Positions 48,301 through 64,000 of a stretch of 64,000 nt of DNA are shown here, piece after piece. The notes beneath the pieces were generated by a model. It worked only from the letters and a program-made list of their open reading frames with translations. It made no database searches and was not told where the DNA came from. The stretch covers positions 62,001 to 126,000 of the forward strand of contig JACRMR010000008.1 in assembly GCA_016214895.1 (NCBI GenBank), written 5' to 3'. A program made the translations under genes and the position numbers. Within the stretch, counting starts at the first letter, position 1; every line of letters starts with the position of its first letter. The stretch is from a candidate division KSB1 bacterium. GTDB taxonomy: Bacteria > Electryoneota > RPQS01.

Positions 48301-48851
48301 ATTCGATGCTCGTCCAGCGCGAAGACCTCTTGAAGGCGAAACGGACGATTGAAGAGACGATTCAGCGAATTAATGAGACGGCGCAGGCGCAGTTCCTCCA
48401 CACGTTCGAGGCGGTCCGCGCGCACTTCCAGCGGCTCTTCCAGGAGTTCTTCCCGGCCGGTGAAGCGGATTTGGTACTGAGCGGTCAGGATCTGCTCGAT
48501 GCCGATATCACTCTGTGGGCCAATCCGTCCGGCAAGCGCCTGAAATCGCTGTCGCTCATGTCGGGCGGAGAAAAGACCATGACGGCGATCGCGTTGCTGT
48601 TTGCCCTGTATCAGGTCAAGCCGTCCCCGTTTTGTGTCTTTGACGAAGTGGACGCGCCGCTCGACGACGCGAATATTGACCGGTTCAATCGGGTGATTCG
48701 CATGCACGCGGAGACGACGCAGTTCATTCTGATCACACATAATCGGCGGACCATGGAGATTGCCGACAATCTCTACGGGGTCACCATGGAGGAAGAAGGC
48801 GTTTCCAAGCTCGTCTCCGTGCGCCTCTTGCCTTCGGCAGTGGCGTCATAG
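45306..48851 (+). CDS. smc: Chromosome segregation ATPase SMC
   Basis: The core of bacterial condensin, working with the ScpA and ScpB encoded at 5.7-7.3 kb. The 1181-residue protein has the N-terminal Walker A GPNGCGKS (31-38), a long coiled coil, a globular hinge (about 495-660), a returning coiled coil, and a C-terminal half with the signature LMSGGEKTM and Walker B FCVFDEVDAPLDD. The start is GTG at 45306, 27 bases after gatB. Length and layout match standard SMC. Confidence 0.96.
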   Translation: MQLVSLSISGFKSFARPTTLTFAAGITAIVGPNGCGKSNVVDALRWVMGEQRTSVLRGDRMENVIFNGTVNRKATGIAEVKIVLNNENGFLSSPFTEVEIARRLYRDGTSEYLLNSHECRLKDVTDLLHDSGMGPNLYTILELKMVEEILREDGEGRRSMFEEAAGVAKYKIRRRQAQAKLKQTDEDLLRLADILTEVERHVGSLKRQAIRARKYAELAGQLKSLETANLWHSYQRLVTDVTPLEHAVRDSTALSDSVKAALRLEEARLIEYRTAEIEADKEASARRSDLAAVVQDISRIESDAAALRAREQSCQELIERSDRERILLDQKRELVVLRQQEQAGQSERQETERQRAETLVQTVDAEFDVAAAQLRDVEAQARSHQEYVSGLRHKLSEIQRAYAQASAHHAALVSRGEMLRRDGMTILEQRAALGIQLEAAEADGAKSESEVEQAQARVRALEAERSRHQQELAELEERVRNQNSMLDATSSKLDLLSTLADKGPRAEARIRVLRDRQIAGVVNLLGDTVEVAEPYRRAFQAVLGPAAYYHLTGSAEAALRAADVLRLEQAGQGTFISLAEFTRSEEQLIDPPAGAIGTALSLLNGGVESAVLRHYLGRVVIVEHWEHALHLSDWARAHRATVVALDGQWISGLGIYHLGSEESRTPVDIGLAPQVRELTEQLDRQRAELDASRALLRTMRAGLAELEQGILGAKRTLVDLESARAGVREHKVKTETLLSSLAEREVAIEARLRELDAETAHATSQESEFTVAVQAAEASVTTGESSGGDVSLRLATAQQNLTATRERKHEAERRRDAARHQVELTRAEITRIEQTLDEIGESLVQATANRAQGESDLVGIRARLQEIDGQLLAKWKQRDHWTAVIDTASARVEELRGRTSAQEERLRTLRQTHDAELEGERKIELEIARLRGELDALLSSASSLHGLDLTAPDFVEQHPEVTAESTGEQVQELRERIERLGPVNLMAIEEFETENTRLDSMLVQREDLLKAKRTIEETIQRINETAQAQFLHTFEAVRAHFQRLFQEFFPAGEADLVLSGQDLLDADITLWANPSGKRLKSLSLMSGGEKTMTAIALLFALYQVKPSPFCVFDEVDAPLDDANIDRFNRVIRMHAETTQFILITHNRRTMEIADNLYGVTMEEEGVSKLVSVRLLPSAVAS

Positions 48852-48876
48852 CCACGAACAGGAGGAGAACGTCAGC

Positions 48877-50283
48877 ATGCGCGTGCGTTACTGGATACTG
48901 GGATGTGTTGTCGCGTGCACCATGGGCTTGCGGTCCGCTCACGGCGGTTATACGATGGACCTCGACTACGCTTCGTTTCGCACAAATGACTCCCTGAGCT
49001 TCGTCGAGATTTATGCGGCGGTTCAGAAGTCCGCGCTGCTCGGTGAAATCGTGGGCGACTCGGTCAGCTCCGATTTCGATGTGGTGGTAGAGTTGATCAG
49101 CGGTACCGAAGCCGTCCTGTCCGACACGTTCAGCGGAACGTATCAGTGTCCCGTTTCGGACACGCTGGAGTCCGGGAGCTTTTTTCCGCACGTGTTTCGC
49201 TACTATCTGCGCCCGGGCCGGTATCAGGTCCGGGCGACTCTCTATCAAGGGGCGTGGCGGCCGCGCGAAACGATCACCGACGAGATTGACGTCAAGGCCC
49301 TGTCGGGTACGGAACTGGTACTGTCCGATATCGAACTCGGATGTCGTTTCGAAGTTGATACGGTCCATTCATCCTCTTACATTAAGAACAGCGTGCACAT
49401 GCTGCCGAACGCGACCGGCTTCTACGGCGAGCGTGTGCCGATGTTGTATTACTACGCGGAAGCCTACGGCCTCGACTACGATCCGCAGCTGCCGGATTCT
49501 TACGTCGTCAGTCGCCGGGTGATACGGGCGGATGATGGCCGCGAACTGATGGCTTCGCGCAAAGTCAACCGCGCGGGCGGGACGGCCGGCGTGATCGTTG
49601 ACGGATTCCCGGTGGCGACATTGCGCACGGCGGCCTACGAACTGGAGCTCGTGGTCCAGTCCTTTCGCAGCGGCCGGGTAGCGGTGAGCAACAAGCGATT
49701 CTGGATTTTCCGGGAAGCCGATTTCGCCGGCGGGCGGACGCCGGAGCTTGATGAAACCATGCGCCAGCGGTTTCTCGCCAGCGAACCCAGCATCCTCGAT
49801 GTGATCGCTCCGGACAGCGCTTTGGACCTCATGAAATACGTGCTGTCCAAGGAGGAGCTGGCGCGCGTGCGTCGCTTGAATGAAAGCGGACAACGCGAGT
49901 TTCTCCGGACTTATTGGGTGAATCGCGAAGCCAATGAACCGAATGCCGCGAACAAGTACTTCGCTCGCGTTACAGAGACCAACGCCAGGTTTGGGATTCT
50001 GCACCGTGCGGGATGGAAAACCGATCGCGGCCGGGTTTTCATTCAGCACGGCGAACCTGATGCGGTGGATCGAAACTACATGGGCGCGGCGGAGTTGAAC
50101 ACGGAAATCTGGCAATATGATCGCCTCGAGGGCGGGGCAATATTCGTGTTCGTGGATTTCAACGAATACGGCGATATGGAGTTGGTTCACAGTACCTTGC
50201 GGGGTGAAGTGTACAATCCCGACTGGAAGCGAACGGTGGTCACCGGGCGGCGGATTCCGGCGGGCGCCGACGCCACGCGATAG
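48877..50283 (+). CDS. GWxTD-domain exported protein
   Basis: A 468-residue exported protein of unknown function. It has a signal peptide (about 1-24), a large N-terminal beta-rich region (about 25-300), and the GWxTD domain (about 330-460). The naming motif is G379-W-K-T-D383, followed by GRVFIQHGEPD. GWxTD proteins are found mainly in FCB-type bacteria and have no assigned activity. The ATG at 48877 is supported by a strong AGGAGGAG at 48860-48867; the longer frame from 48760 overlaps smc. The ABC ATPase gene starts directly after its stop. Confidence 0.82.
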   Translation: MRVRYWILGCVVACTMGLRSAHGGYTMDLDYASFRTNDSLSFVEIYAAVQKSALLGEIVGDSVSSDFDVVVELISGTEAVLSDTFSGTYQCPVSDTLESGSFFPHVFRYYLRPGRYQVRATLYQGAWRPRETITDEIDVKALSGTELVLSDIELGCRFEVDTVHSSSYIKNSVHMLPNATGFYGERVPMLYYYAEAYGLDYDPQLPDSYVVSRRVIRADDGRELMASRKVNRAGGTAGVIVDGFPVATLRTAAYELELVVQSFRSGRVAVSNKRFWIFREADFAGGRTPELDETMRQRFLASEPSILDVIAPDSALDLMKYVLSKEELARVRRLNESGQREFLRTYWVNREANEPNAANKYFARVTETNARFGILHRAGWKTDRGRVFIQHGEPDAVDRNYMGAAELNTEIWQYDRLEGGAIFVFVDFNEYGDMELVHSTLRGEVYNPDWKRTVVTGRRIPAGADATR

Positions 50284-51036
50284 ATGGGGTCACTCGTGAC
50301 GGTCACCGGCCTGGGCAAGGATTTCGCGGATTCCCTCGGCGAAGTCGTCCGTGCTTGCCGCGACCTCAGTTTCGAGGCTGCCCCCGGCGAGGTGTTCGGA
50401 CTGCTCGGCACGAATGGAGCGGGGAAGACCACCGCGCTGCGAATGCTGTCGACCCTGCTGACTCCGACCCATGGCGACGCGGTGCTCGCCGGTCACAGCG
50501 TTGTTACTGGACCGGAACAAGTCCGCAAGTCGATTGGTTTCATGACCGCGGACACTGGCGTGTACGGTCGGTTGACGGCGCGGGAAATGATCGAGTACTT
50601 TGGTCGGTTGCACGCTTTGTCAGACGCGCGGATCAGCGCGCGCATCGATGTGATTGCCGATGCGCTGGACATGCGGGACTTCCTCGGGCGTCGTTGCGAC
50701 AAGCTGTCCACGGGTCAGAAGCAGCGGGTGAACATTGCGCGCACGATTGTTCATGACCCCGGGATTCTGGTCTTTGATGAACCGACCGCCGGACTGGACA
50801 TTCTTGCCGCGGCGCAGATCGTGCGGTTTATTCGCGATTCGCGGGACGCGGGCAAGTGCATCATTTTCTCGACGCACATTATGCGCGAAGCCGAGAAGTT
50901 GTGTGATCGCATCCTGATTCTGCATCGCGGACAGGTGTGTGCGGGGGGAACGCTCGGTGAACTTCGTGCTCAGTTTGGAAAGAACGACCTTGAGGACATC
51001 TTTCTTGAGGCAATTGGCGAATCCGTGTTGACGTGA
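50284..51036 (+). CDS. ABC transporter ATP-binding protein, NatA-like
   Basis: A 250-residue ATPase subunit of an ABC-2-type exporter. It has Walker A GTNGAGKTT (about 42-50), the signature LSTGQKQRVNIAR, Walker B ILVFDEPTAGLD and the switch His in STHIMREAE. The sequence most resembles NatA, which normally pairs with the membrane protein NatB to export sodium or drugs. No permease gene follows: only a 25-codon frame overlaps the stop, then a regulator gene. Either the permease is encoded elsewhere or has been lost. It directly abuts the GWxTD gene. Confidence 0.82.
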   Translation: MGSLVTVTGLGKDFADSLGEVVRACRDLSFEAAPGEVFGLLGTNGAGKTTALRMLSTLLTPTHGDAVLAGHSVVTGPEQVRKSIGFMTADTGVYGRLTAREMIEYFGRLHALSDARISARIDVIADALDMRDFLGRRCDKLSTGQKQRVNIARTIVHDPGILVFDEPTAGLDILAAAQIVRFIRDSRDAGKCIIFSTHIMREAEKLCDRILILHRGQVCAGGTLGELRAQFGKNDLEDIFLEAIGESVLT

Positions 51037-51110
51037 ACAGACCGCGGCTGGCCCCGACTTTGCCGAGATCGGAGTCAGCGCGCGCGGTCTCGGGCCAAGC
51101 AGCGCAGTAA
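51033..51110 (+). other. Short ORF overlapping the ABC ATPase stop, possible permease remnant
   Basis: A GTG at 51033 overlaps the ATPase stop as GTGA and opens a 25-codon frame starting MNRPRLAPTL, ending at TAA 51108-51110. The position and the first residues are where a NatB-type permease would begin, but no membrane segment follows. It could be a truncated remnant or chance. Confidence 0.25.
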
Positions 51111-51146
51111 CTTCGCAACCCATGGCCTTCGACACGGATTCAGAGC

Positions 51147-52343
51147 ATGAACCAAGATATTCTTGATCTGCTGGTAATCGACGACGAGCAAGAGATCATC
51201 GGCGTCGTCGAATCGGCGCTTCGCGATTTTCACCTCACGATTGGCACGGCTTGCAGCGTCAGAGCGGCGCGCGAGTTGGTGCGTGAGCAGCAATTTCGGG
51301 TCGTACTCACTGACCAGCGGTTGCCGGACGGACTTGGCCTGGACTTCATCGAAGACATGGCAGCTCGCGGCATGACGTCGGTGCCGATTCTAATGACCGG
51401 GCTCGTGGACGTTGATCTGGCGCTGGCGGCGATCAATCGCGGCAAGGTGTTCAAACTGGTCACCAAGCCATTGGACGTTCTTGCCTTGCGCGAGACGGTG
51501 AATCGGGCAATTGCTCAGCACAGCCAGGCGGACGAGCGGAAGCGTCTGGCCACTGAGGTCTTGCGCTTTAATGAGCACTTGCGCAAGGAATCCGCGCTGA
51601 AGGATCGTACACTGCGCGAGGCGGCGGACCGCATCCGCAGCGGCGAACAGACGCTACAGCGGCAGCAGCAACGGATCGTGTCACTATACACCGAGTTGCA
51701 GCAGGCTTACCTTCGGACCGTGATGTCGCTGACGGCGGCGATTGACGCCAAGGATACTTACACCCGCGGTCACAGTGAACGGGTATATCGTTACTGCCGG
51801 CTGATGGCGGAGGTGCTGGGGTTCGATGCCGAAAGCCAACGTGACCTGAAGCTCGCCAGCGTGCTTCACGACCTTGGAAAAATCGGGATCCCCGATGCGA
51901 TCCTGCTCAAGAAGGGCCCGCTGACTATGGAAGAGCGGGCGGTGATGGCCACGCACCCGGCGATGACCGAGAGTATTCTCCAGCCCCTGCCGTTTCTGGA
52001 AAAGGTTCGCAGAATCGTTCGCGAGCACCACGAGAGGTACGATGGCACCGGATATCCCCTCGGTTTGAGCGGCTCAGAGATTTCTATTGAAGCACGGGTT
52101 TTGACGGTTGCGGACGCATTTGACGCCATGCGCTCCGATCGACCTTACCGGGCGGCAATGTCCGACGAGGAGGCGCTGGCCGAACTTCTTGGGGGATGCG
52201 GATCCCAGTTCTGCCCGATGTGCGTGGGCGCGCTTCGGGTTGGTTTGGTCCACCCCGGCTTGGCCCGGACCGAAGATAGCGAATCAGAGTGCCGAAGCGA
52301 CTGGTTTGGCGCGATCCAGCTTCCCCCCTCTGGTGAACATTGA
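51147..52343 (+). CDS. Response regulator with HD-GYP phosphodiesterase domain
   Basis: A 398-residue regulator predicted to hydrolyse cyclic-di-GMP (or related dinucleotides) when phosphorylated. The N-terminal receiver has acidic D12/D13, phosphoacceptor D56 and the conserved Lys in VTKPLD. A coiled coil (about 130-180) leads to the HD-GYP domain with H241-D242 in LHDLGKIGIPD, HHERYDGTGYP (D299, G302-Y-P) and VADAFDAM. All metal residues are visible. The C-terminal 45 residues diverge: GSQF is followed by CPMC where most relatives have a DPxVV helix, and a 25-residue tail follows. No partner kinase is adjacent. Confidence 0.88.
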   Translation: MNQDILDLLVIDDEQEIIGVVESALRDFHLTIGTACSVRAARELVREQQFRVVLTDQRLPDGLGLDFIEDMAARGMTSVPILMTGLVDVDLALAAINRGKVFKLVTKPLDVLALRETVNRAIAQHSQADERKRLATEVLRFNEHLRKESALKDRTLREAADRIRSGEQTLQRQQQRIVSLYTELQQAYLRTVMSLTAAIDAKDTYTRGHSERVYRYCRLMAEVLGFDAESQRDLKLASVLHDLGKIGIPDAILLKKGPLTMEERAVMATHPAMTESILQPLPFLEKVRRIVREHHERYDGTGYPLGLSGSEISIEARVLTVADAFDAMRSDRPYRAAMSDEEALAELLGGCGSQFCPMCVGALRVGLVHPGLARTEDSESECRSDWFGAIQLPPSGEH

Positions 52344-52419: not shown

Positions 52420-52448
52420 TTGACTTTTGGTTTCGGATTTGCTATACT
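52420..52448 (+). promoter_or_regulatory. Predicted promoter of the porU-porV cluster
   Basis: TTGACT (52420-52425), a 17-bp spacer, TATACT (52443-52448). The expected start site is near 52455, giving a leader of about 118 bases. It is 77 bases after the HD-GYP gene and is the only clear promoter before the 11-kb surface cluster. A short CCGGC-TCT-GCCGG hairpin lies between the HD-GYP stop and this promoter. Confidence 0.7.
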
Positions 52449-52505: not shown

Positions 52506-52572
52506 AGGATTTTGGCGGTCAGGAGTTTACAATCACCGGGTCCTTCCTTTGTCGAATCTCTTGAGGGCGGGA

Positions 52573-55500
52573 ATGTTGCCAATAATAACCAAAGCCGGTT
52601 TCGGCCGAATGAGATACGCGCTCTCGTTCGGCCTTTCGTGTGTTTTATGGAACGCGATGGCCTTGATCGGGTTGTTTTTGTGTGCTCCCGCTGGACTTCT
52701 GCAGGCGGCAGAGCGGGGCGAGGCAGCGGACTCCGACACACGGCCGCCGGCTGTAATTCTGCGTCCCGCTTCCACTGTTGACCCGCAGACAATTGAAGTC
52801 AGCTCGCGGATCGTGACAGCCCAATCTTGTGTCTGGACGTTCTCGCCGCCTGAACCTGAATTCGTCGAATCCGATTCGCTCCATTCGGCGGATCGCATTC
52901 CAACGTGGGCGCAATGCGGCTGGCGAACCGGCTCGGGAGCCAAACAGCCTGTCCGGGTCTTCTACGTCGTGCTCCCGCCCGGCTCGACGCCGATGCTGAC
53001 CATTAGCGGTGTCACTACCGCGCCATCTCGCTACGGCATGGCACAGTCCACGTCATCCGACCAGGACTCGCTGCCGGCTCTCGTCGGATGGGCGGAGATC
53101 ACTCGGATTGAGAGTTGGCGCGGCTTCCGGTTTGCCCGCGTCGAAGTAGCGCTGCAGCGCGGATCGCATACCGCTGCTACCCTGCTGTCGTCCGTACAAC
53201 TCCGCGTTGACTTTTCCGGAAGCTCGGGGGAGCTGGCACCGCGGGATCGCGACAGTAAAATGCTCGCGGACATCGCGGCGAACGGGACGATCGCGTCGCG
53301 GTGGTGGCGCGACGGAGACTCAGGCGGAGCGCGGCTTCGTTCGGCGCTGGATGCCTGGCCGGAATTCCCGCTGTATCGATTGACGCTCGAAGAGACCGGA
53401 GTGTACTCGATCAGCGGCAGCCAATTGCGCTCGCGCGGCGTCCAATTGTCAGGTTCTCCCTCGGCGAAGATCAAACTATTCGGGAACGGCGGAAGGTTGC
53501 TCAACAATCTCACGTCGGCTCTGCCGGACGAAGTCTTGAAAGAGAATGCGATTCGGGTTGAAGACGGTGGCGACAACGTCTTTGATGACGCGGACTTGAT
53601 TATATTCTACGGCACGGGTTTGAAGGGGTATGACTATTGTGCCCAATCGTACTTGAATGACGTCGCTCATCAGAGCCCGTTCTCCACGGAGAACGTCTAT
53701 TTTGTCGGCGTGGACGAAACTGGCCCTGACGGCCTGCGGATGGCCCCCATTTCGACCGGAAATGGTAGCTCGGTCCTTCAGCAAACTTCCGCGGCATTCG
53801 AATACGTTGAGAGCGAAGTGTTCATCCGCGGTCCTTCCGATCAGCCCGAGTCGGGCCTGATCTGGATGATGTCCACGCTCGCGGCGGGCGAGGACCGCAC
53901 GTTTTCGATCAACCTCAGCGCGGCGACCGGCGCCGCAGGCCGATTGAATTTCGTGGGGTCGTCTTACGGCAGCCCGGGTAGTCTGTTCGACATCTACCTG
54001 AATGGCGAGCAGGTATTCGACGGAACATACAATTCATATCTCTACATTGATGTGCCGGCCGGCACCATCGTCCCCGGCAATAACGTGGTGAGGTTCGTTA
54101 ACGGCTCGACGGCTACGGTGTACCTGAACTACTTCGAGTGCGAGTTCATTCGCGAATTATCGACGGCCAACGGCACTCTCCATTTTGTCGCCCCCGCAGC
54201 CACGGGGTATTTCCGCTACGAAATCGGGAATCTCAACTCGCAATCGTTCATACTGGATGTGACCGATCCGTTGCGTCCCCGGCTCTCGACGGGTCCGGTC
54301 CTGACCGATTCGAGTTACCAGTCCGGCCCGCGCCGCTATTTTGCGTCGAATCGGGACCGCTTTCGCACCCCGCTGGTTCGCGGTGCGGTCAGTCATGGGA
54401 CGGCGGATTACACGTCGCTGCGTGACCCCGCGAACTCGGCGCGCATGGTGATGATTACCTACGACGACTGGTTCGACGAACTCGCACCACTGAAGGAGTT
54501 CCATGAGACCTATCGCGAGGAGCCGATGCCGGGGCTGGTGAAGCGGGTGCGGCTGGGCGACATCTATGACGAGTTTGCGTGGGGGGTCCGGGATCCCGTG
54601 GCCATCCGTAACTTCCTGAAGTATGCATTTGAGCACTGGCGCGGCCCCGATGGCGCTGCCGAACCGCTCAAGTATGTGCTCTTTGTGGGCGACGGAGACT
54701 ATGATTATCGGAATCTTGAATCCAATGCCGACCGCAACTGGATGCCGCCGTGGGAGGATACGAACAAGTGTACCGACGCGTTCTTCGTGAAGTTCGGCAA
54801 CAGCGCTTTGCCGGAACTCATCACGGGGCGATTTCCGGTGCAAAGCGACGCGGAACTGGCGGCGATCATCGACAAGACGATTGCATACGCCAACGAGCCG
54901 CTCTACGGTCCGTGGAAGAACACGGCGACATTCGCCGCCGATGACGAGTGGAAGAACGGGGTTCCGGCGGAGTCGGTGCACACCTTGCAGGCCGAGACCC
55001 TGGTCAATCAAGTACTCCCGCGCTATTTCACGTTCAGAAAGGCTTACGAGTGTCTCTATCCGTTCCGGGTCTCGGCGCAAGGTCGCTTTAAGCCCGACGC
55101 CACGCGGGATCTGATCGACATCATTAATCGCGGGACGTTACTGGTGAATTTCCAGGGGCACGGAAACGCGCGGATTTGGACGGACGAGCAGCTGTTCGTG
55201 ATGGATCGCGACATGGACCTGCTTGACAACTACCGCACGTGGCCGGTGTTTGTTGCCGCGACGTGCAGTTGGGGGCTCTACGACGCCCCGATCGGACGCT
55301 GTTTCCCTGAACTCTTGTTGAGTGACCCAGTGGATGGCGCTATCGCCTGCATCGCCGCGACGCGCTTCACCGGATCGAATCAGAACCAGGCCCTGGCCGC
55401 GTCGTTCTACCGCGACATCTTTCGACAGGGGCTGGCTTCGCGGCGCAGTCTCGGCGAATCGCTATGGACGGCACACGGGCCATATACCAACAACGACCTC

Positions 55501-56619
55501 TATCACGTGCTTGGCGATCCCGCGTTGCGGCTGGCGTCGCCCGAGTATTTCGTTCGTGTAACCGAGGCCAGCGATTCGATTCAGGCGCTCTCGATCTTTG
55601 AGATGCATGGAATTGTCTCGCGGGATTCAGGCGGTGAGCGCTGGTCAACGTTCCAAGGCGTCGTCGAAGCCCGCGTGTTCGATACCGAAGATTCGCTGCT
55701 GTATCTTTGGGGCGGCGGCGGCTGGGGTTCATCGTACATAATTCTCCCGGGCAACTCGATCTTTCGAGGCACCGCGAGCATCGTAAACGGTGAGTTCACC
55801 GTACGCTTTCGCGTTCCGCGCGATGTTCGGTACGGTGGCAACAATGCCAAGATCAGCCTGTACTTCTTCGGCAAAGATAGTCTGTCCGCTGATTCGGCGG
55901 ACGGCATCGGCATTCAGGATCACCTGCTGATTGCGAGCGCTGCCGCGGCGGAAACGGATACGGTCCCGCCGCGCATTCAGGCGTGGCTCGAGACGCCCTC
56001 ATTCCGGAGTGGCGATTTGGTCAGTCCGTCACCGAAATTGATCGTGGGCCTGGCGGACAGCTCCGGCATCAACCTCTCGGGCGAAGTCGGTCACCGCGTG
56101 ACCGTGCGTCTCGACGATGCGCAGGTCGATGACCTCACCCCGTTCTTCAACTACGACCGCGACAGCTACACGACCGGAATGCTGGAGCGGTCGCTGGGAC
56201 CGCTCGCGACCGGCTCGCATACGATGCTGATCGAGGCCTGGGACTCTTTCAACAATCTAAACCAGATTGAGCTTTCCTTCACGGTGGGAGAGTCGGGGGA
56301 GGCGGGTTATCAAATCACCGACGTGCTCAATTGGCCGAATCCGATGAGCGGTTCAACGAACTTCACCTACTATCTTACGCAGGCGGGAACGCGCAGTGTG
56401 TCCTTGAAGGTATTCACCCTGTCGGGCAAGTGCGTCTTTGAGCAGCGCGGTCTCGGCACTCGCGGTCCGGCCTTCAACAGCAATGCGGATCTGCCGTGGG
56501 ATGGACGGGACCGCGAAGGGCATCTGCTGGGCAACGGCGTATACTTCTATCGCGTGCGGGCCGAACACGAAGATGGACAATCGGCCGAGGCCACGGGCAA
56601 GTTGGTTATCTTGCGCTGA
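52573..56619 (+). CDS. porU: Type IX secretion PorU-like C25 cysteine peptidase with C-terminal sorting-type domain
   Basis: In Porphyromonas, PorU is the surface sortase that cleaves the sorting domain of T9SS cargo and attaches it to lipopolysaccharide. This 1348-residue protein has an export signal (hydrophobic near 20-45), a long beta-rich N-terminal half, a gingipain-fold C25 domain (about 620-995) with H863 in FQGHGN and C898 in ATCSWG, Ig-like parts, and a C-terminal domain from about 1250 starting WPNPMSGS. The catalytic dyad spacing resembles gingipains. The ATG at 52573 has GAGGG upstream; an ATG at 52609 is the alternative. A porV gene follows, as in Bacteroidota. It could be a T9SS cargo peptidase instead of the sortase. 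Confidence 0.75.
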   Translation: MLPIITKAGFGRMRYALSFGLSCVLWNAMALIGLFLCAPAGLLQAAERGEAADSDTRPPAVILRPASTVDPQTIEVSSRIVTAQSCVWTFSPPEPEFVESDSLHSADRIPTWAQCGWRTGSGAKQPVRVFYVVLPPGSTPMLTISGVTTAPSRYGMAQSTSSDQDSLPALVGWAEITRIESWRGFRFARVEVALQRGSHTAATLLSSVQLRVDFSGSSGELAPRDRDSKMLADIAANGTIASRWWRDGDSGGARLRSALDAWPEFPLYRLTLEETGVYSISGSQLRSRGVQLSGSPSAKIKLFGNGGRLLNNLTSALPDEVLKENAIRVEDGGDNVFDDADLIIFYGTGLKGYDYCAQSYLNDVAHQSPFSTENVYFVGVDETGPDGLRMAPISTGNGSSVLQQTSAAFEYVESEVFIRGPSDQPESGLIWMMSTLAAGEDRTFSINLSAATGAAGRLNFVGSSYGSPGSLFDIYLNGEQVFDGTYNSYLYIDVPAGTIVPGNNVVRFVNGSTATVYLNYFECEFIRELSTANGTLHFVAPAATGYFRYEIGNLNSQSFILDVTDPLRPRLSTGPVLTDSSYQSGPRRYFASNRDRFRTPLVRGAVSHGTADYTSLRDPANSARMVMITYDDWFDELAPLKEFHETYREEPMPGLVKRVRLGDIYDEFAWGVRDPVAIRNFLKYAFEHWRGPDGAAEPLKYVLFVGDGDYDYRNLESNADRNWMPPWEDTNKCTDAFFVKFGNSALPELITGRFPVQSDAELAAIIDKTIAYANEPLYGPWKNTATFAADDEWKNGVPAESVHTLQAETLVNQVLPRYFTFRKAYECLYPFRVSAQGRFKPDATRDLIDIINRGTLLVNFQGHGNARIWTDEQLFVMDRDMDLLDNYRTWPVFVAATCSWGLYDAPIGRCFPELLLSDPVDGAIACIAATRFTGSNQNQALAASFYRDIFRQGLASRRSLGESLWTAHGPYTNNDLYHVLGDPALRLASPEYFVRVTEASDSIQALSIFEMHGIVSRDSGGERWSTFQGVVEARVFDTEDSLLYLWGGGGWGSSYIILPGNSIFRGTASIVNGEFTVRFRVPRDVRYGGNNAKISLYFFGKDSLSADSADGIGIQDHLLIASAAAAETDTVPPRIQAWLETPSFRSGDLVSPSPKLIVGLADSSGINLSGEVGHRVTVRLDDAQVDDLTPFFNYDRDSYTTGMLERSLGPLATGSHTMLIEAWDSFNNLNQIELSFTVGESGEAGYQITDVLNWPNPMSGSTNFTYYLTQAGTRSVSLKVFTLSGKCVFEQRGLGTRGPAFNSNADLPWDGRDREGHLLGNGVYFYRVRAEHEDGQSAEATGKLVILR

Positions 56620-56668
56620 GCGCGAGCATTAAGTTTTAGAAGAACTGCAATTGATCATAGGAGGCAGA

Positions 56669-57715
56669 ATGAAGAAAACCTTGATGTGCGCGATTGCGCT
56701 GACCGTCCTCGTGGGCGGGAGCGTCGCGCACGCCGCGAGCGTCAGTCAGGCGACGCTGCTGTTTCTCAAGATCGCGCCCGGTGCGCGTCCGGCAGGAATG
56801 GGTGAAGCCTATGTCGCGATTTCCGACGACGCTTCGGCGACGTGGTGGAATCCGGCCGGACTCGGCTTTCAGCACGGCCGCGAGTTCACGATGATGTATG
56901 TTCGTTGGCTGCCGCAATTCAACCTGTCGGACCTCTACTACGCTTACATGAGCGGCGTGTACGAAGTCCCTGAATGGGGCACCTTCGGCGGCAACATCAT
57001 CTTTCTGAATCTCGGGGAGACGACCCGCACCGACGAGAACGCGCGCACGCTCGGGACCTTCTCGTCCTATGAAGTCGCGGTTACGGGAACTTACGGCGCA
57101 CAGATTAATCGGCACCTTTCGATGGGTGTGGGGTTGAAACTGGCCTACAGCAGCTTGTCTCCGACGGGTGCGGGTCAGGAAGCCGGCAAGGGTACGGCCA
57201 CCGCCGTCGCGGCAGACCTCGGCGTGCTCTACAAGTCGCCGCAGCTGCGCGGCTTGTCGCTCGGCGCGAACCTGTCGAACATGGGACCCAAAGTAGCGTA
57301 TATAGATCGCGCACAGGCGGACCCGTTACCGACAAATCTGAAGGTTGGCTTCGCGTACCGGATCATCGATCAGGAGTACAACCGACTGACGATCGCATCT
57401 GACGTGAACAAGGAGTTGGTGAAACGGGACAAGTTCGGACGGTCGGATGAATTCTACGAGGCGCTCTTCAGCGCGTGGGGTGACGGCGATCTGGTCCCGT
57501 CGTTGATCTGGAATATGGGGGCGGAGTACTGGTATTCGACCCTCGTCGGGCTTCGCGCCGGCTACTGGAACGACGAACTGGGGAAGGTCTTTCCCTACAC
57601 GTTCGGTGTGTCTCTGAAGTACAGTTCGTATCGCTTCGACTTCAGTTATCTAACGGCGGGGCAAAATCACCCGCTGACCGATACGATGCGTTACTCACTG
57701 TCGGTCGATCTCTAA
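56669..57715 (+). CDS. porV: Type IX secretion outer-membrane protein PorV-like
   Basis: PorV is a FadL-like outer-membrane barrel that shuttles T9SS cargo from the translocon to the PorU sortase. The 348-residue protein has a signal peptide (about 1-23), then ATLLFLKIAPGARPAGMGEAYVA and TWWNPAGLGF, which are hallmarks of the PorV/PorQ family, and an alternating-strand barrel to a C-terminal YSLSVDL. Known PorV proteins are about 380 residues. AGGAGG four bases before the ATG at 56669 fixes the start. It lies 49 bases after the PorU-like gene; adjacency of the two genes is also seen in P. gingivalis. Confidence 0.82.
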   Translation: MKKTLMCAIALTVLVGGSVAHAASVSQATLLFLKIAPGARPAGMGEAYVAISDDASATWWNPAGLGFQHGREFTMMYVRWLPQFNLSDLYYAYMSGVYEVPEWGTFGGNIIFLNLGETTRTDENARTLGTFSSYEVAVTGTYGAQINRHLSMGVGLKLAYSSLSPTGAGQEAGKGTATAVAADLGVLYKSPQLRGLSLGANLSNMGPKVAYIDRAQADPLPTNLKVGFAYRIIDQEYNRLTIASDVNKELVKRDKFGRSDEFYEALFSAWGDGDLVPSLIWNMGAEYWYSTLVGLRAGYWNDELGKVFPYTFGVSLKYSSYRFDFSYLTAGQNHPLTDTMRYSLSVDL

Positions 57716-57727
57716 CCCGCCTGCGCT

Positions 57728-60700
57728 TTGAAATTCCGGCTGATCCACCTGCTGATCGTCACGTCGCTTGGGCAAGCGGGGATGTCGTTCGCGGCGTTCC
57801 CGCTTGTCGCGCCTCCGGAAGCTCGCACGTTGTCCGTAGATGAACCGTGGCCGCTTTCGGATACGATTCGTGTGTGCGCCATTCGCGTCGAGTTTCAGCC
57901 GGACGCCATTACCGGAACGTCGGGAACCGGACTCATGGCGGACGCATCGCTGTTCCCGGATTCGCTGCACTTCGATCCGCTGCCGCATGACAGCCAGTAT
58001 TTCGCCGATCACCTCGCCCTTATTGCCGACTATTTTCGGGTGGCGTCACACGAACACCTTCACTTCGGCGCGCTGGAGGTCTATCCGCCGGGAGCTTCGA
58101 ATGTCCTGCGGCTTAACCATCCGATGTGGCACTACAACTACAATACGGATCAGGACCTGTTGAACAGCAAGCTGGTCGAGCTGTTTGTGCACGCAATCTG
58201 GAAGGCCGACTCCGCGGGAATTCCGCTGGATCAGTACGATGCGTTTGTGATCTTCCACGCTGGCGTCGGCAAAGACTTCAGCTTCGGCTACGACGCGACT
58301 CCGTTTGATATTCCATCGGCATTCATTTCGGAGAACGACTTGCTGCCCTATCGCTCGCGGTTACCCGCGGCCGTGACAAGCGGCTTGTTGCTGCCGGAAG
58401 CCGAGAATCAACAGGAAGCGTTGGACTACGGCATTGAGCTTTCGTTGAACGGGATTTCCGTCAAGTTGTTCGGGAATTGGCTGGGTCTGCCCGACCTGTT
58501 TGACACCGAGACCGGTCGCAGCGGGATCGGTCGCTGGGGGATGATGGATCAGGGTTCGGGCAATCTCAATGCGCTGGTGCCCGCGCTGCCGGACGCCTGG
58601 TCTCGCCTGTACATGGGCTGGGACACGCCGGAGATTGTGATCCCCGGCAGCGACACCGCGGCGGCGATCACGACACAGCGGATCAAGCGGACTGGGAGCG
58701 CCGGCGATCTACCGGAAATCATCAAGCTGCCCGTTACTCCTACGGAATACTACCTGCTCGAGAATCGGGACGCGGACGCGGATTCGATTGGGCACGTTTC
58801 GCTGTTTGATCGCGACGGGCGAGAGCTGCAGATGGACCGCGACGGTAATCTGGCCATCCAGACGGGTTTCAGAGTGGCGGTACGCGCGAGTCATTATGAT
58901 TACGGCATTCCGGGCAGCGGGCTTTTAATCTGGCATATTGATGAGGAAGTGATTGAGGTCGGGCTGCCCACGAACCGCGTCAACGCGGACCGTGAGCATC
59001 GTGGCGTTGATCTTGTGGAGGCCGACGGAGCGCAGGATATCGGCCGGGAATACGGCTTTGCATCGTCAGGCAGCGGCACTGAATTAGGCATTCAAGAGGA
59101 TGCGTGGTGGGGCGCGAACGCTGATCACAAGGCGGCCAACGGCGGTTCCCCCGTGCGTTTCACGGATCGCTCGCATCCATCGACCAAGCTTTACGACGGC
59201 TCATATACCTATCTGGAACTAACGAATTTCAGCGACGTGGCGGACACGATGAGTTTCCGCGCGCGGTTGACGTATGCGGTACCGGGGTATCCGGTCGAGA
59301 TGACGGCGTCCGAGCAGCCCGTATTCGGATATGCGGATTTTGATGGCGATGGTTACCGGGAATTGGTCGCGCAGAGCGGCCGTGCGGTGCGTATATTCTC
59401 CTTCGGGGGCGAATCACTGTTCAGTCTTGACGTGCCGGATGGGATGCAGATTTCTTCGATCTTTGCAGAAGGGCAGGATCTTGACGGCGACGGCCTCGAA
59501 GAGTTGTTGTTCACCGGAGACCGCGTGGGGTACCTGCAACAAGCGGGCAGTGGATACGAATTGCTGAGCGGCGCCGCGCACAGGGGTTATTTCACGGAGG
59601 CGTTTCCCTGCAGTACGGCAACCGGCGTGAGACTGCTGCTTGAAGCCGGCATGGCCGACGGATCGGAACCCGACGATTCGGTGTGGATCAAGGTGTACGA
59701 TTCACAGATGAATCTGCTGTATCGAACAGATTTCGGCGTATTCCGGACAAGCCAGATTCGCAACATAGAGGCGGCACCGGCTACCCGGTTTGCGCTGTCA
59801 ACTCCGGCAGAACTGAAGTGCGTCGAGGTAACGGATACGGGTCTGGTGGACGTCTGGGCGAATTCAAGTCTGATCGACGACATTTGGGTGCTGAACGAGC
59901 CGGCTGAACGATTCCTGTACTCACATCAGCTCGGGTACCTGCGCGCCAGTGACGGCGTCTTGGTCGCCGGACCGGACACCACACGACCGCCGAGGATCGA
60001 TTGGGATGGGGATGGCATCTGCGAGGGGGGGGGACGATTCGGCGAGAGTGACTTGCAAGGTGAGGACCTGCCGGGGATGCCGCTCGACACCGACACCGGC
60101 TCCATCGAAGACCTGGATGCCGACGGCAAGCCCGACATCCTTGCGCTCCGCAAGTTGTCCGGAGACTCGTCGCGGTTACCGGCGGGTTGTTCTCGGATGT
60201 CCGCGTTTGAGCATAGCGGCCGTTCATTCGACGGCTTTCCGCTGGCGGCCCACCAGATCCTGACTCAGTCCAGTAACGGATTCGATCTCGCCCCGGATAA
60301 CAACCTCTTCTTCGTCTCGATGTACCGTAATGCGTCGGCCGGGACCTACCAGATTTCGCTGAACAAGTTGCCGATTCTCGCGCGAGACAATCTACGATTT
60401 AAGTACACCGCGCCAGCCAATATCATAACCGTCGGTCCGCTGCGCCCGCAGGTGCATGCTCGCGCGGACTGGGTCTATTGTTGGCCGAATCCGGCGCGTG
60501 AGGTTTCCTACATCCGCGTGACCCGCTCCGACGCATCACAGACCAAAGTCAAGTTATTCGATCTGGCCGGGCGCATGGTCGCGGAACTATCCGGCTCCTC
60601 GGGCATGGCCGGTCAGTACGAGATTCCGTGGGACGTGACCAATGTCGAGAGCGGCGTGTATATCGGTTCGGTCGAAGTGCGTGGCAGCGGCTCGACGGAG

Positions 60701-60733
60701 CGGAAGGAAATCAAGATCGCGGTGGTGAAGTAG
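57728..60733 (+). CDS. Degenerate M6-family peptidase with FG-GAP-like repeats and sorting-type C-terminus
   Basis: A 1001-residue exported protein: signal peptide (about 1-22), M6 (immune inhibitor A-like) domain (about 35-460), calcium-binding FG-GAP/VCBS-like repeats (YADFDGDGYRE near 535, FAEGQDLDGDG near 580, IDWDGDG near 755, EDLDADGKPD near 795), and a C-terminal domain from about 914 starting YCWPNPARE. Where M6 peptidases have HExxHxxGxxD, this protein has K246-L-F-G-N250-W-L-G253-L-P-D256. The flanking GLPDLFDT and GIGRWGMMDQGSGN are well kept, so alignment is secure and zinc catalysis is not expected. The start is TTG at 57728, 12 bases after porV. It is probably a T9SS-exported binding protein. 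Confidence 0.72.
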   Translation: MKFRLIHLLIVTSLGQAGMSFAAFPLVAPPEARTLSVDEPWPLSDTIRVCAIRVEFQPDAITGTSGTGLMADASLFPDSLHFDPLPHDSQYFADHLALIADYFRVASHEHLHFGALEVYPPGASNVLRLNHPMWHYNYNTDQDLLNSKLVELFVHAIWKADSAGIPLDQYDAFVIFHAGVGKDFSFGYDATPFDIPSAFISENDLLPYRSRLPAAVTSGLLLPEAENQQEALDYGIELSLNGISVKLFGNWLGLPDLFDTETGRSGIGRWGMMDQGSGNLNALVPALPDAWSRLYMGWDTPEIVIPGSDTAAAITTQRIKRTGSAGDLPEIIKLPVTPTEYYLLENRDADADSIGHVSLFDRDGRELQMDRDGNLAIQTGFRVAVRASHYDYGIPGSGLLIWHIDEEVIEVGLPTNRVNADREHRGVDLVEADGAQDIGREYGFASSGSGTELGIQEDAWWGANADHKAANGGSPVRFTDRSHPSTKLYDGSYTYLELTNFSDVADTMSFRARLTYAVPGYPVEMTASEQPVFGYADFDGDGYRELVAQSGRAVRIFSFGGESLFSLDVPDGMQISSIFAEGQDLDGDGLEELLFTGDRVGYLQQAGSGYELLSGAAHRGYFTEAFPCSTATGVRLLLEAGMADGSEPDDSVWIKVYDSQMNLLYRTDFGVFRTSQIRNIEAAPATRFALSTPAELKCVEVTDTGLVDVWANSSLIDDIWVLNEPAERFLYSHQLGYLRASDGVLVAGPDTTRPPRIDWDGDGICEGGGRFGESDLQGEDLPGMPLDTDTGSIEDLDADGKPDILALRKLSGDSSRLPAGCSRMSAFEHSGRSFDGFPLAAHQILTQSSNGFDLAPDNNLFFVSMYRNASAGTYQISLNKLPILARDNLRFKYTAPANIITVGPLRPQVHARADWVYCWPNPAREVSYIRVTRSDASQTKVKLFDLAGRMVAELSGSSGMAGQYEIPWDVTNVESGVYIGSVEVRGSGSTERKEIKIAVVK

Positions 60734-63700
60734 TGCATTCTAAGCTTCGTGTCTTCTGTTTCATTCCACTGCTGCTGCTGCTCGTCGTCGGTGCGGCGTC
60801 TGCTCAGGAGGAGTTGTACAACAACCCTGAGCTTAACTGGCTGAGTTTCGAGACCGAACACTTCGTGGTCTATTACACTCCGGGCCTCGAGGATGTTGCG
60901 AACATGGCGGCGGAAGTGGGCGAAGAAATCCACGGCCCGCTCTGCAAGCTGTACGACTACGAGCCGGACACCAAAGTCTCGTTCATCTTCACCGACACGG
61001 ATGACATCGCCAACGCCGGTTCCTATTTCCAGTCGAACAAGATTCGCTTCTACGCGACGTCGATGAACTGGGATTTTCGCGGTACGCACAACTGGTTGCG
61101 CAATGTGGTGACACATGAGTACACGCACATGATTCAGTTGGGCGCGACGCGGAAGTGGAGCCGCAGTCTTCCCGCCGGCTACTTTCAATTGCTGGGCTAT
61201 GAACCGGAGCGGCGTCCCGACGTGCTCTATGGCTACCCCAACCGCCTGATCAGTTGGCCCTGGCCTTCCGTGACAGTTCCAGCTTGGTTTGCGGAGGGCA
61301 CGGCACAATATCAATTTACTGGCACGGGCTACGACTTCTGGGATAGCCATCGTGACATGCTCTTGCGGCAGGCGGTGCTTTCGGGAAGGCTGCTGAGCTT
61401 CGAGGACATGGGTTACTTCGGCAAAACCAGCCTCGAGAGCGAGGGTGTTTACAATCAGGGCTACGCGCTCACGACGTACATCGCGGCTCACGCGGGGGGG
61501 GCTGAAGTTCTGAGCACCGTCAGTCATAAGTTGTCAGCGGCGCTGCCGGTGACGCTGAACGACGCCTTCAAGTCGGAGACCGGTCGCAGCGGTTTGGACT
61601 GGTACAACGCCTGGAAAGACAGCCTGGAGCGCGCCCACCAGTCCCTGCAACGCGAGCTCGAGCCGACGCTGACCCGGGCGGACACGATTCCGACGCTCGG
61701 ATACGTGAATCTGAATCCGCGACTATCTCCCGCGGGCAAACGGATCGCCTTCATTTCGAATCAGAATCGCGACTACTTCGGACAATCGAGCCTCTACTTG
61801 TACGAGATTGACTCGGCCAAAGCGAAGCTGGTCGCTCCCGGCGCGCATGGCTCAATTTCGTGGACACCGGACGGATCAGCAATCATCTTTTCCCGACTTG
61901 CGGATGATTGGCGGAGCGGCTATAAACAGTACGATCTCTTCGCCTACATGATCGGGTCAAAGAAGTCCATCCGCTTGACCGACGGTTTGCGCGCGGAGTG
62001 CGGAGACGTCAGCCCGGACGGCAAGCACCTCGTAGTGACCATCAATGAGAGCGGGCGGAGGGAGATCGGCCTGCTGCCGTTCCCCGATATCCGTGACGGC
62101 AAAGCCAAGCCCGTAACCCCTGACGATCTACTGGTCAGGCTGCCTGCCCTTCCGCACGAGCAGTTCTATGGCCCGCGCTGGAGCCCTGACGGCAACCGCA
62201 TCGCCGTCGCTCAGCACTTGGTTGAGGGCCGGAGCCTGCGCATTTACGACGTGGCCGCGGACCGTCACTCGTTGACTTTGTTCAAGGAACTTAGCGGCGA
62301 TCTTGAGGAGTTGCGTGATCCGTCATGGAGCGAAGACGGACAGCACCTCGTCTGCGCCTGGGATGTCAGCGGCATCTCCAACATCTATCGGTTCGCCATT
62401 GACGGTGACGCGCGTGAACAGCTAACCAGCGTGTTGGGCGGAGCGTACTATCCCGATCTCCGCGGCGGTCGGCTGTGTTACGCCGAGTTTTGCGAAAATG
62501 GATTCCGCATCTGCCACCTCGATCAACCCCAACCTGTGCGCGCGCCCCGGAACACGTTGGACGCCGACCCGGCCGGGGCCATGGCCTATTCATCGCGCTT
62601 GCCGAAACCTGCGTATGCGTTGACTTCCGCTCACCGCGAGGCCAGGCCGTACCGGCCGACGTTCGAGAGACTCTACTGGTTCCCCCGCGTCGCTTTCGAT
62701 TACGGGACATTCAAACCCGGAACTTATATTCTGATCAACGATGTGCTCGAGAAGCTCAACTTCATCGGCGGCTTCGCCATCAATCAGAAGCGTGACTATG
62801 ATCTCTTCGGCTCCGTCGAGTACCGCGAGTTCTACCCGACGATCTTCGTGGATTATTACAATATTCAGCGTCGTCTGACCTCGCATTTCGCGGACTCGTC
62901 GCGAATCATCGGCGAGACTCCGGAATCCGATCCGACGTACGACCAGTACCGCATCCGTTATCGCTATCAACTGAACGAGGTGGATGGCGGACTCAAACTG
63001 CCGATCGGTCCAGGGCGGTCAGTAAAGCTCATGGGAGTTTATGATCGATATGTCGCCAATAATCGCTTTGACGACGAGACCAGCATCTCGATCACATATT
63101 TCAAAGGTTGGTCAGGCAAGCTTGGCTATTACACTGACCAGCGGCGCCGCGGAATTGTGTCATCGATCAGCCCCAGCGGCGGCTACAAAGGCTATCTCGA
63201 ATTGACGCGCGCCAATCAGCAATTTTTTACCGATTTGGAAATCGGCGGAAATGCGATTGGACTTCAAGAAATCTACGCCCCCTACAACTACACGATGGCC
63301 GAAGGCGGCTATGAGAAGTACTTCGGACTGCCGGGCTGGTCCCACACCGGCGAGGTCCGCCTGCGCGGAGGCTACATCGGCCGCCCCGTGGATCCGTTCT
63401 TCTTCATGTATGCCGGCGGCCTGCCCGGGATGCGCGGCTATTCGTTCTACAGTTTGGGCGGCTCGCGAACCGCGGTGGGTACGCTGACCTATCGTTTTCC
63501 CCTGACCACGCGCGCGGGGATCAATCTCTGGCCGCTGTCTCTCAATCGCGTGTATGGGACGCTGTTCGCGGATGTCGGTGATGCGTGGACGGGCGACTTT
63601 GAGTCCGCGGATCTGAAAAAGGACATCGGCGCTGGGTTGCGAATGCAGTTGCACTCCTTCTACTCCTATCCGACCGCGATTTCCATCGACGTTGCATACG

Positions 63701-63828
63701 GTCTGGACAAGTTCGCGGTCGTAGAGGATGAGGCTCGTACGGAGTACGGCAAAGAGCTTCGCTACTATCTGACGGTGCTTTTCGATTTCTACAGTCCGTT
63801 TACGGATCACGTTCCCGGCGATCACTGA
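60733..63828 (+). CDS. Fusion of peptidase-MA-like metallopeptidase, PD40 beta-propeller and Omp85-type barrel
   Basis: A 1031-residue exported protein. The signal peptide (about 1-25) precedes a gluzincin domain (about 25-330) with the intact motif H128-E129-Y-T-H132 and third-ligand candidate E188 in WFAEGTAQY. TolB/PD40-type propeller repeats follow (about 330-640; LSPAGKRIAFIS, WTPDGSAIIFSR, VSPDGKHLVVT, WSPDGNRIAVA). Residues 650-1031 are aromatic-rich alternating strands ending in a bacterial surface antigen/BamA-like barrel with GGLPGMRGYSF near 895. The GTG at 60733 overlaps the previous stop and gives the signal peptide. The chain would place an active peptidase and propeller on an outer-membrane barrel; which side they face is unknown. 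Confidence 0.75.
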   Translation: MHSKLRVFCFIPLLLLLVVGAASAQEELYNNPELNWLSFETEHFVVYYTPGLEDVANMAAEVGEEIHGPLCKLYDYEPDTKVSFIFTDTDDIANAGSYFQSNKIRFYATSMNWDFRGTHNWLRNVVTHEYTHMIQLGATRKWSRSLPAGYFQLLGYEPERRPDVLYGYPNRLISWPWPSVTVPAWFAEGTAQYQFTGTGYDFWDSHRDMLLRQAVLSGRLLSFEDMGYFGKTSLESEGVYNQGYALTTYIAAHAGGAEVLSTVSHKLSAALPVTLNDAFKSETGRSGLDWYNAWKDSLERAHQSLQRELEPTLTRADTIPTLGYVNLNPRLSPAGKRIAFISNQNRDYFGQSSLYLYEIDSAKAKLVAPGAHGSISWTPDGSAIIFSRLADDWRSGYKQYDLFAYMIGSKKSIRLTDGLRAECGDVSPDGKHLVVTINESGRREIGLLPFPDIRDGKAKPVTPDDLLVRLPALPHEQFYGPRWSPDGNRIAVAQHLVEGRSLRIYDVAADRHSLTLFKELSGDLEELRDPSWSEDGQHLVCAWDVSGISNIYRFAIDGDAREQLTSVLGGAYYPDLRGGRLCYAEFCENGFRICHLDQPQPVRAPRNTLDADPAGAMAYSSRLPKPAYALTSAHREARPYRPTFERLYWFPRVAFDYGTFKPGTYILINDVLEKLNFIGGFAINQKRDYDLFGSVEYREFYPTIFVDYYNIQRRLTSHFADSSRIIGETPESDPTYDQYRIRYRYQLNEVDGGLKLPIGPGRSVKLMGVYDRYVANNRFDDETSISITYFKGWSGKLGYYTDQRRRGIVSSISPSGGYKGYLELTRANQQFFTDLEIGGNAIGLQEIYAPYNYTMAEGGYEKYFGLPGWSHTGEVRLRGGYIGRPVDPFFFMYAGGLPGMRGYSFYSLGGSRTAVGTLTYRFPLTTRAGINLWPLSLNRVYGTLFADVGDAWTGDFESADLKKDIGAGLRMQLHSFYSYPTAISIDVAYGLDKFAVVEDEARTEYGKELRYYLTVLFDFYSPFTDHVPGDH

Positions 63829-63871: not shown

Positions 63872-64000
63872 ATGAGCACAAAACGTTTCACGATCGCCTG
63901 CCTGCTCGCCGCGATCTTCATCGCGATGAACTCCGGCCCGGCGGCGGCGGCGAGTTTCCCGCTGTCGCCCTACCGCGCGCAACTGGCGGAAGGCGAACAT
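63872..64000 (+). CDS. Exported protein, 3' partial
   Basis: Only the first 43 codons are present. The product starts with a clear signal peptide (basic MSTKRF, hydrophobic core to about residue 20, Ala-rich cleavage region AAAA-SFP). GGAG lies six bases before the ATG. The mature part begins SFPLSPYRAQLAEGEH and gives no family match that I recognise. It continues the series of exported proteins in this cluster. Confidence 0.6.
   Translation, partial: MSTKRFTIACLLAAIFIAMNSGPAAAASFPLSPYRAQLAEGEH

Follow-up and report, generated by a model that had tools for sequence, protein, structure and literature searches.

MAB, a putative zinc peptidase with a POTRA-less Omp85 barrel, shares its genomic distribution with an inactivated M6-like protein in a T9SS setting

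We describe a gene, named here MAB (MA-peptidase/propeller/barrel), in a 64,000-nucleotide stretch of DNA (the window). Its product joins a putative active zinc peptidase to a TolB-like propeller and an Omp85-type barrel. MAB goes with its upstream neighbour, an inactivated M6-like protein (M6i), and with the translocon side of the type IX secretion system (T9SS), not with the sortase. MAB and M6i very probably constitute a functional pair in this T9SS setting. The best explanation overall, an outer-membrane zinc peptidase that acts on a T9SS-related client together with M6i, has about an even chance of being correct. The T9SS provides Bacteroidota and their relatives with a major route of protein export, and the handling of its cargo past the PorU sortase is poorly known.

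Results

Architecture of MAB

The reading frame of MAB is uninterrupted, and its GTG start overlaps the stop codon of the preceding gene (TAGTG). Profile matches were counted over 36 family members, and conserved sites were read from 31 orthologues from several phylum-level groups (30-67% identity to the window protein) and 5 paralogues. The features of the gene, all on the + strand, are as follows.

60733..63828, +, MAB gene, 1031 aa, GTG start
60733..60804, +, predicted signal peptide, codons 1-24, with mature start at Q25 (sequence reading, LLLLLVVGAASA followed by Q)
60805..61668, +, Peptidase MA-like (gluzincin) domain, residues 25-312; Peptidase_MA_2 in 35/36 members at E<=0.01, best 1.9e-12; model largely helical
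61114..61128, +, predicted zinc-binding motif HEYTH, residues 128-132 (sequence alignment)
61138..61260, +, conserved insertion between HExxH and Glu, about residues 136-176 (alignment)
61294..61296, +, E188 of WFAEG, predicted third zinc ligand, invariant in 36/36 members
61702..62529, +, six-bladed TolB-like beta-propeller, about residues 324-599; PD40 in 35/36, about 24 strands in the model
62662..63825, +, Omp85-type 16-strand barrel, residues 644-1031 (barrel-only model, Foldseek, PF01103 in 6/36)
63433..63441, +, RGY motif, residues 901-903, between barrel strands 11 and 12, corresponding to Omp85 loop L6 (alignment, model)
63565..63585, +, F-x-D-x-G-x-A motif, residues 945-951, barrel strand 13 (alignment, model)

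A hydrophobic leader is common to many orthologues as well, and on sequence reading the leader of MAB has no lipobox Cys. Full-length orthologues throughout the KSB1-like phylum rule out a chance or frameshift artefact. No NCBIfam model matches MAB itself at cut-off.

The peptidase domain carries the complete gluzincin signature, HExxH with a downstream Glu. H128, E129, H132 and E188, the last 56 residues past HEYTH, are unchanged across all 31 orthologues and the 5 aligned paralogues, and this invariance rules out a degenerate peptidase. The insertion between HExxH and Glu is mostly missing from paralogue group B. In the window protein, the Peptidase_MA_2 match has E=0.008 and 16.4 bits, against a curated cut-off of 32.4, and the active-site region of the structure model is of low confidence. 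Judged by its residues, MAB is a putative active zinc peptidase.

The propeller matched solved TolB structures by both phmmer and Foldseek, with PD40 at E=2.6e-16 in the window protein. When the whole of MAB was searched with Foldseek, propellers filled the match list and nothing could be learned about the barrel; hence the barrel was modelled alone. The resulting model has 16 strands and a mean pLDDT of 64.9, and the structure models (mean pLDDT 66.6 and 64.9) are of moderate confidence. The best 50 PDB matches of the barrel model were all BamA, TamA, FhaC or CdiB, at E about 1e-6 to 5e-5 and probability 1.00. Pfam Omp85 (PF01103) was found in six of the 36 members (best 2.8e-8), with no Pfam match to it in the window protein itself.

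Both the L6 (V/I)RG(F/Y) motif and the acidic strand-13 motif of Omp85 proteins are present. Position 901 is R or K, position 903 is Y/F and position 947 is D/E in 31/31 orthologues; judged from column counts, about ten sequences have S at G902 and E at D947. One or more N-terminal POTRA domains are typical of characterised Omp85 members. In the model, the helical peptidase domain, the propeller and a short linking segment fill residues 25-643 of MAB, leaving no POTRA and no space for one. MAB belongs to the Omp85 superfamily by its modelled barrel and its motifs, but not by a POTRA. For comparison, BamA of F. johnsoniae carries LRGY (PMC12611786).

A preliminary description of this DNA had proposed a single exported chain with an intact HEYTH peptidase, PD40 repeats and a BamA/surface-antigen-type barrel that no POTRA precedes. 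The open reading frame, the domain matches and the models agree with each of these points, the barrel being a modelled one.

The T9SS gene cluster and M6i

MAB lies on the + strand behind genes of the T9SS.

52420..52448, +, promoter-like site upstream of PorU, TTGACT-17-TATACT, 10/12 (consensus scan only; 6 sites found vs 3.6 expected)
52549..56619, +, PorU, T9SS sortase (start codon approximate); NF033707 636 bits, cut-off 420; Peptidase_C25 2.8e-72
56651..57715, +, PorV/PorQ-family outer-membrane protein (PorV-like); NF033709 289 bits, cut-off 90; 207 bits against the PorV equivalog model, under its cut-off of 250
57728..60733, +, M6i, T9SS-dependent inactivated M6-like metalloprotease; NF052323, 413 bits vs cut-off 600
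58463..58477, +, site of the lost M6 HExxH in M6i (KLFGN), ahead of LGLPDLF (alignment)
60482..60697, +, T9SS C-terminal sorting domain of M6i; Por_Secre_tail PF18962 7.8e-8
63872..64000, +, start of a DUF5683-like gene downstream of MAB, extending beyond the window end (L065:7873-8847, contig C8); DUF5683 is weak here (0.0043) and 3.6e-7 in the Bacteroidota counterpart

The neighbours are those given by the preliminary description, namely PorU, a PorV/PorQ-family protein and a pseudo-peptidase, here an M6-like protein minus its HExxH. The order PorU-PorV-M6i-MAB is kept both in the KSB1-like phylum and in Bacteroidota. M6i is immediately upstream of MAB in 20/20 loci of the KSB1-like phylum. 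Of 87 genomes, 79 have PorU on the same strand, 4.2-5.9 kb ahead of MAB, and PorV and M6i stand between PorU and MAB in most loci inspected. The link of MAB to the genes of the T9SS, which the preliminary description also drew, is a dedicated one: the cluster is conserved in two phylum-level groups, and the occurrence of SprA and the distribution of M6i (below) point the same way.

NF052323 matches 13/13 aligned M6i proteins, and in all 13 HExxH is absent from the M6 active-site position. Thus, the zinc site is kept in 31/31 MAB proteins, whereas the M6 site is lost in 13/13 of the neighbouring M6i proteins. With its predicted sorting domain, M6i is T9SS cargo-like and should end up outside the cell.

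Distribution of MAB, M6i and the sortase complex

MAB is a core gene of the KSB1-like phylum, with orthologues in 39/39 genomes (a few as contig-end fragments or the paralogue only); SprA is over its cut-off in 35/39. A scan of genome contigs found MAB at 10 loci (Calditrichaeota, KSB1, Ignavibacteriae and MAGs). Among 296 sampled Bacteroidota genomes, strong MAB matches occur in 115, and M6i is found in the same 115, with a wide score gap under the threshold; these are genome counts, which overstate independent events. The two genes are separated in no fewer than five of them (G048, G122, G130, G180, G314), so that hitch-hiking within an operon does not fully account for the pattern. The preliminary description suggested a self-contained device, which is unlikely because M6i is the exact partner of MAB in 115/115.

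MAB is not tied to PorU. PorU is present in 106 of the 115 MAB-bearing Bacteroidota genomes, leaving nine with MAB but without PorU, and MAB is missing from 91 of the 197 that bear PorU; a dependence of MAB on PorU is thereby ruled out. Where MAB and PorU are both present, PorQ is found in 104/106 and PorZ in 105/106.

The nine genomes without PorU also lack PorQ and PorZ. They retain SprA (>1500 bits), PorV, M6i and MAB, and encode 7-29 sorting-domain proteins. On the MAB tree, this absence amounts to at least three losses. Since PorU was lost while M6i, SprA, PorV and MAB stayed, the partner of MAB is M6i plus the translocon side of the T9SS, and not the sortase.

Discussion

From these observations we infer the enzymatic activity of MAB, its membrane topology, its physical contact with M6i and the identity of its client. 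The 16-strand barrel would anchor MAB in the outer membrane, with the gluzincin domain and the propeller most likely facing the periplasm. The peptidase would most likely process or clear a T9SS-related client, and M6i may be either a dedicated substrate or a regulatory or recognition partner. The specific role of MAB as a protease on M6i or on a T9SS client is a tentative assignment, somewhat short of an even chance. With M6i expected outside the cell and the peptidase in the periplasm, contact would be confined to the transit of M6i or would take place via the barrel.

The barrel might instead export its own peptidase and propeller to the cell surface, with M6i as a surface co-factor. The sorting domain would place M6i there, so that the pair would be on one side of the membrane, and the genetic link of MAB to the T9SS is a dedicated one. 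However, the MAB peptidase has no T9SS sorting domain, and the N-terminal domains of characterised Omp85 proteins are periplasmic. Furthermore, a like proposal for PlpD, an Omp85 protein whose enzymatic N-terminal domain is held in the periplasm, was not supported by experiment (PMC11116518). By analogy with PlpD, the periplasm is the more likely site of the MAB peptidase, and a surface device appears unlikely.

We consider it similarly improbable that MAB is a dedicated Omp85 assembly factor for PorV, SprA or the display of M6i, with the peptidase in subsidiary quality control. MAB does keep the L6 RGY and strand-13 motifs, like assembly and translocation members, and Heinz & Lithgow suggested assembly roles for uncharacterised Omp85 subfamilies (PMC4104836). 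Against this, the 91 PorU-bearing genomes without MAB make it dispensable for general T9SS assembly, and it has no POTRA.

Vertical inheritance alone holds neighbours together, and genome counts inflate independent events; MAB could then be a conserved envelope peptidase in a stable gene cluster by chance. The identical 115-genome set of MAB and M6i, separated genes included, and the loss of PorU without loss of MAB make the absence of any functional link very unlikely. That M6i and MAB substitute for the PorZ-PorQ pair has next to nothing in its favour beyond the formal likeness of one T9SS-exported protein plus one barrel in each pair: PorQ and PorZ accompany MAB in nearly all PorU-bearing genomes, which refutes a general replacement, and both vanish along with PorU while MAB persists.

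One of the closest known systems is WD40-Omp85, catalogued in 2014 without function as a POTRA-less Omp85 with an N-terminal propeller; the same source accepts POTRA-less subfamilies within the superfamily (Heinz & Lithgow, PMC4104836). MAB has this arrangement, a TolB-like propeller before a POTRA-less barrel. The absence of POTRA pointed out in the preliminary description is thus not new by itself, its type being already on record. Unlike MAB, with its peptidase domain, M6i and T9SS link, the WD40-Omp85 account, as far as available, gives the propeller alone (PMC4104836). PlpD (patatin-Omp85) shares with MAB the barrel and an N-terminal enzyme domain; unlike MAB, it has a lipase-type enzyme, one POTRA, no propeller and no T9SS link (PMC11116518). 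TolB of Tol-Pal, itself six-bladed, matches the middle domain best in both sequence and fold, but is soluble and lacks peptidase and barrel. The NF052323 family named by NCBIfam is that of the neighbouring gene with the shared distribution; its product resembles T9SS cargo and is separate from MAB. With the attachment complex PorU-PorV-PorQ-PorZ, MAB shares the gene cluster (PorU, PorV) and the secretion system, and it departs from PorU, PorQ and PorZ in gene loss. By keyword search, MAB is not described in the available passages of PorV/PorU papers (e.g., Cytophaga hutchinsonii, PMC8564354) or in those on the F. johnsoniae BAM complex (PMC12611786). The barrel type is not new, while the peptidase site, the pairing with M6i and the T9SS link appear undescribed in the literature as far as it could be searched.

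More speculatively, and with rather low probability, M6i and MAB could form an unrecognised two-protein T9SS module across the outer membrane, in which the exported pseudo-protease joins an active protease anchored in the membrane, and that processes or releases cargo independently of PorU. If so, this module would be the remaining processing route in lineages devoid of PorU, PorQ and PorZ. Found in the same set of genomes and retained upon loss of the sortase complex, MAB and M6i constitute a concrete candidate module. They also offer a first clue to what a POTRA-less Omp85 subfamily, catalogued in 2014 but still without an assigned function, may do.

Domain architecture of MAB

MAB, the peptidase-propeller-barrel protein under study, is encoded by an unbroken frame of 1031 residues whose GTG start has one base in common with the TAG stop of the preceding gene (TAGTG). 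Its N-terminal signal peptide (predicted mature start, Q25) is followed by a helical domain, a propeller, and a C-terminal barrel.

Features of MAB
60733-63828 (+), MAB gene
Residues 128-132, HEYTH, helical domain
WFAEG (E188), helical domain
Residues 901-903, RGY, between barrel strands 11 and 12 (barrel-only model)
Residues 945-951, F-x-D-x-G-x-A, barrel strand 13 (barrel-only model)

In Pfam, the window protein matched PD40 (2.6e-16) and, weakly, Peptidase_MA_2 (0.008); by itself it gave no Omp85 match. Among the 36 members of the family alignment, PD40 and Peptidase_MA_2 were each found in 35 and Omp85 (PF01103) in 6. Although the orthologues are only 30-67% identical to the window protein, H128, E129, H132, and E188 are unchanged in every one of them (31/31), as they are in the paralogues. 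An insertion between HExxH and the glutamate is conserved across orthologues and mostly missing from paralogues. Since the predicted zinc site is under such strong constraint, MAB likely needs catalysis.

The AlphaFold2 model of the whole protein (11 sequences; moderate mean pLDDT, 66.6; low confidence at the active-site region) shows a helical peptidase domain, a six-bladed propeller of about 24 strands, and then the barrel, leaving no room for POTRA in 1007 modelled residues. Foldseek listed TolB and other propellers for this model. Modelled separately (pLDDT 64.9, again moderate), the barrel has 16 predicted strands, and its best 50 PDB matches were BamA, TamA, FhaC, or CdiB without exception; RGY and F-x-D-x-G-x-A are placed at the sites of both Omp85 signature motifs. 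The intact peptidase, propeller, and POTRA-less barrel on one exported chain, as proposed in the preliminary description, are thus borne out. By column counts only, the L6 motif reads RSY in about ten Bacteroidota orthologues of the alignment, and a similar number carry Y and E for F and D in strand 13, possibly a paired change inside the barrel.

A POTRA-less Omp85 protein with an N-terminal propeller, WD40-Omp85, has been described, with no function given (Heinz & Lithgow 2014, PMC4104836). The barrel-propeller combination has been on record since that year. A full-text search of openly licensed literature for 'WD40-Omp85' matched this paper alone. NCBIfam 20.0 names M6i, the T9SS-dependent inactivated M6-like metalloprotease encoded before MAB (57728-60733, +), and no model in it covers MAB at its cut-off.

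Gene neighbourhood and paralogue

The gene order is PorU (the type IX secretion, T9SS, sortase), a PorV-family protein, M6i, MAB, and a DUF5683-like gene, with PorU, PorV, and M6i agreeing with the neighbours first reported. M6i carries a T9SS sorting domain and has lost HExxH in 13/13 proteins. It lies immediately 5' of MAB in 20/20 own-phylum loci read in context, small extra frames in one being the exception to direct adjacency. PorV, M6i, and MAB are also grouped in four Calditrichaeota/KSB1 loci (L038, L039, L040, L042), with PorU elsewhere in those genomes. The T9SS translocon SprA scored above cut-off in 35/39 own-phylum genomes.

Two DUF5683-like genes lie directly 3' of MAB (window 63872-64000; L065:7873-9505). 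In Bacteroidota, too, a DUF5683 gene comes next, overlapping the MAB stop in several cases, so the cluster may include it as a fifth gene. On the 5' side, window 48760-52343 encodes a GWxTD-domain protein, an ABC ATPase with the GldA model among its matches, and an HD-domain response regulator; in certain relatives (L041, L043), the latter two are conserved on the 5' side of PorU.

All 39 own-phylum genomes gave a MAB match, nearly all with a full-length orthologue; a few matches are fragments at contig ends, and one genome (G036) yielded the paralogue alone. Named relatives are MAGs assigned to Calditrichaeota, candidate division KSB1, Ignavibacteriae, or plain 'bacterium'. The paralogue (group B; genome G000, contig C13:96487-98190, L066:8102-11257, minus strand; also L067-L084) is about 22-26% identical, with the same layout and a complete HExxH...E. 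It is present in most own-phylum genomes, distant from T9SS genes and often adjoining a gene for an ABC-type ATPase, together with a small neighbour that may encode the permease of that ATPase.

Co-occurrence in Bacteroidota

Strong MAB matches (E<1e-100; next weaker best match near 1e-52) occurred in 115/296 Bacteroidota genomes. At a threshold of 1e-50, M6i was found in the identical 115, its weakest best match being 4.5e-135, with zero exceptions in either direction (phi 1.0); genome sets were copied by hand from the search tables into the co-occurrence script. Linkage alone does not account for this, because no fewer than five of these genomes (G048, G122, G130, G180, G314) have the two genes clearly separate. 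On G048 contig C1, a natural separation of the pair, about 860 kb divide them and PorU adjoins M6i on the opposite strand.

Co-occurrence with PorU held only loosely: PorU was found in 197/296 genomes and in 106/115 with MAB (phi 0.43 against the MAB-M6i set), whereas the exact match was M6i. PorU, PorQ, and PorZ travel together (phi 0.93-0.96). Where both coordinates were listed, PorU lay 4.2-5.9 kb 5' of MAB on the same strand in 79/87 genomes, PorV and M6i occupying the gap in most loci read.

Nine MAB-bearing genomes (G104, G124, G151, G162, G214, G246, G278, G309, G317; loci L113-L121) lack PorU even at 1e-12, and none is among the PorQ or PorZ matches listed. They retain SprA (>1500 bits), adjacent PorV, M6i, and MAB, and 7-29 Por_Secre_tail proteins each; they sit at no fewer than three places on the MAB gene tree. 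These genomes represent sortase-less T9SS lineages, with at least three losses.

Implications

Three aspects of MAB appear to be new: its active-looking peptidase domain, the exactness of its pairing with M6i, and its T9SS setting. On the precedent of PlpD (PMC11116518), the N-terminal domains of MAB probably face the periplasm. The simplest reading is that MAB and M6i form a functional pair working with the translocon/PorV part of T9SS. As the likeliest though still somewhat doubtful further step, we tentatively infer that the MAB peptidase would act in processing or clearance, with M6i as its substrate or regulator.
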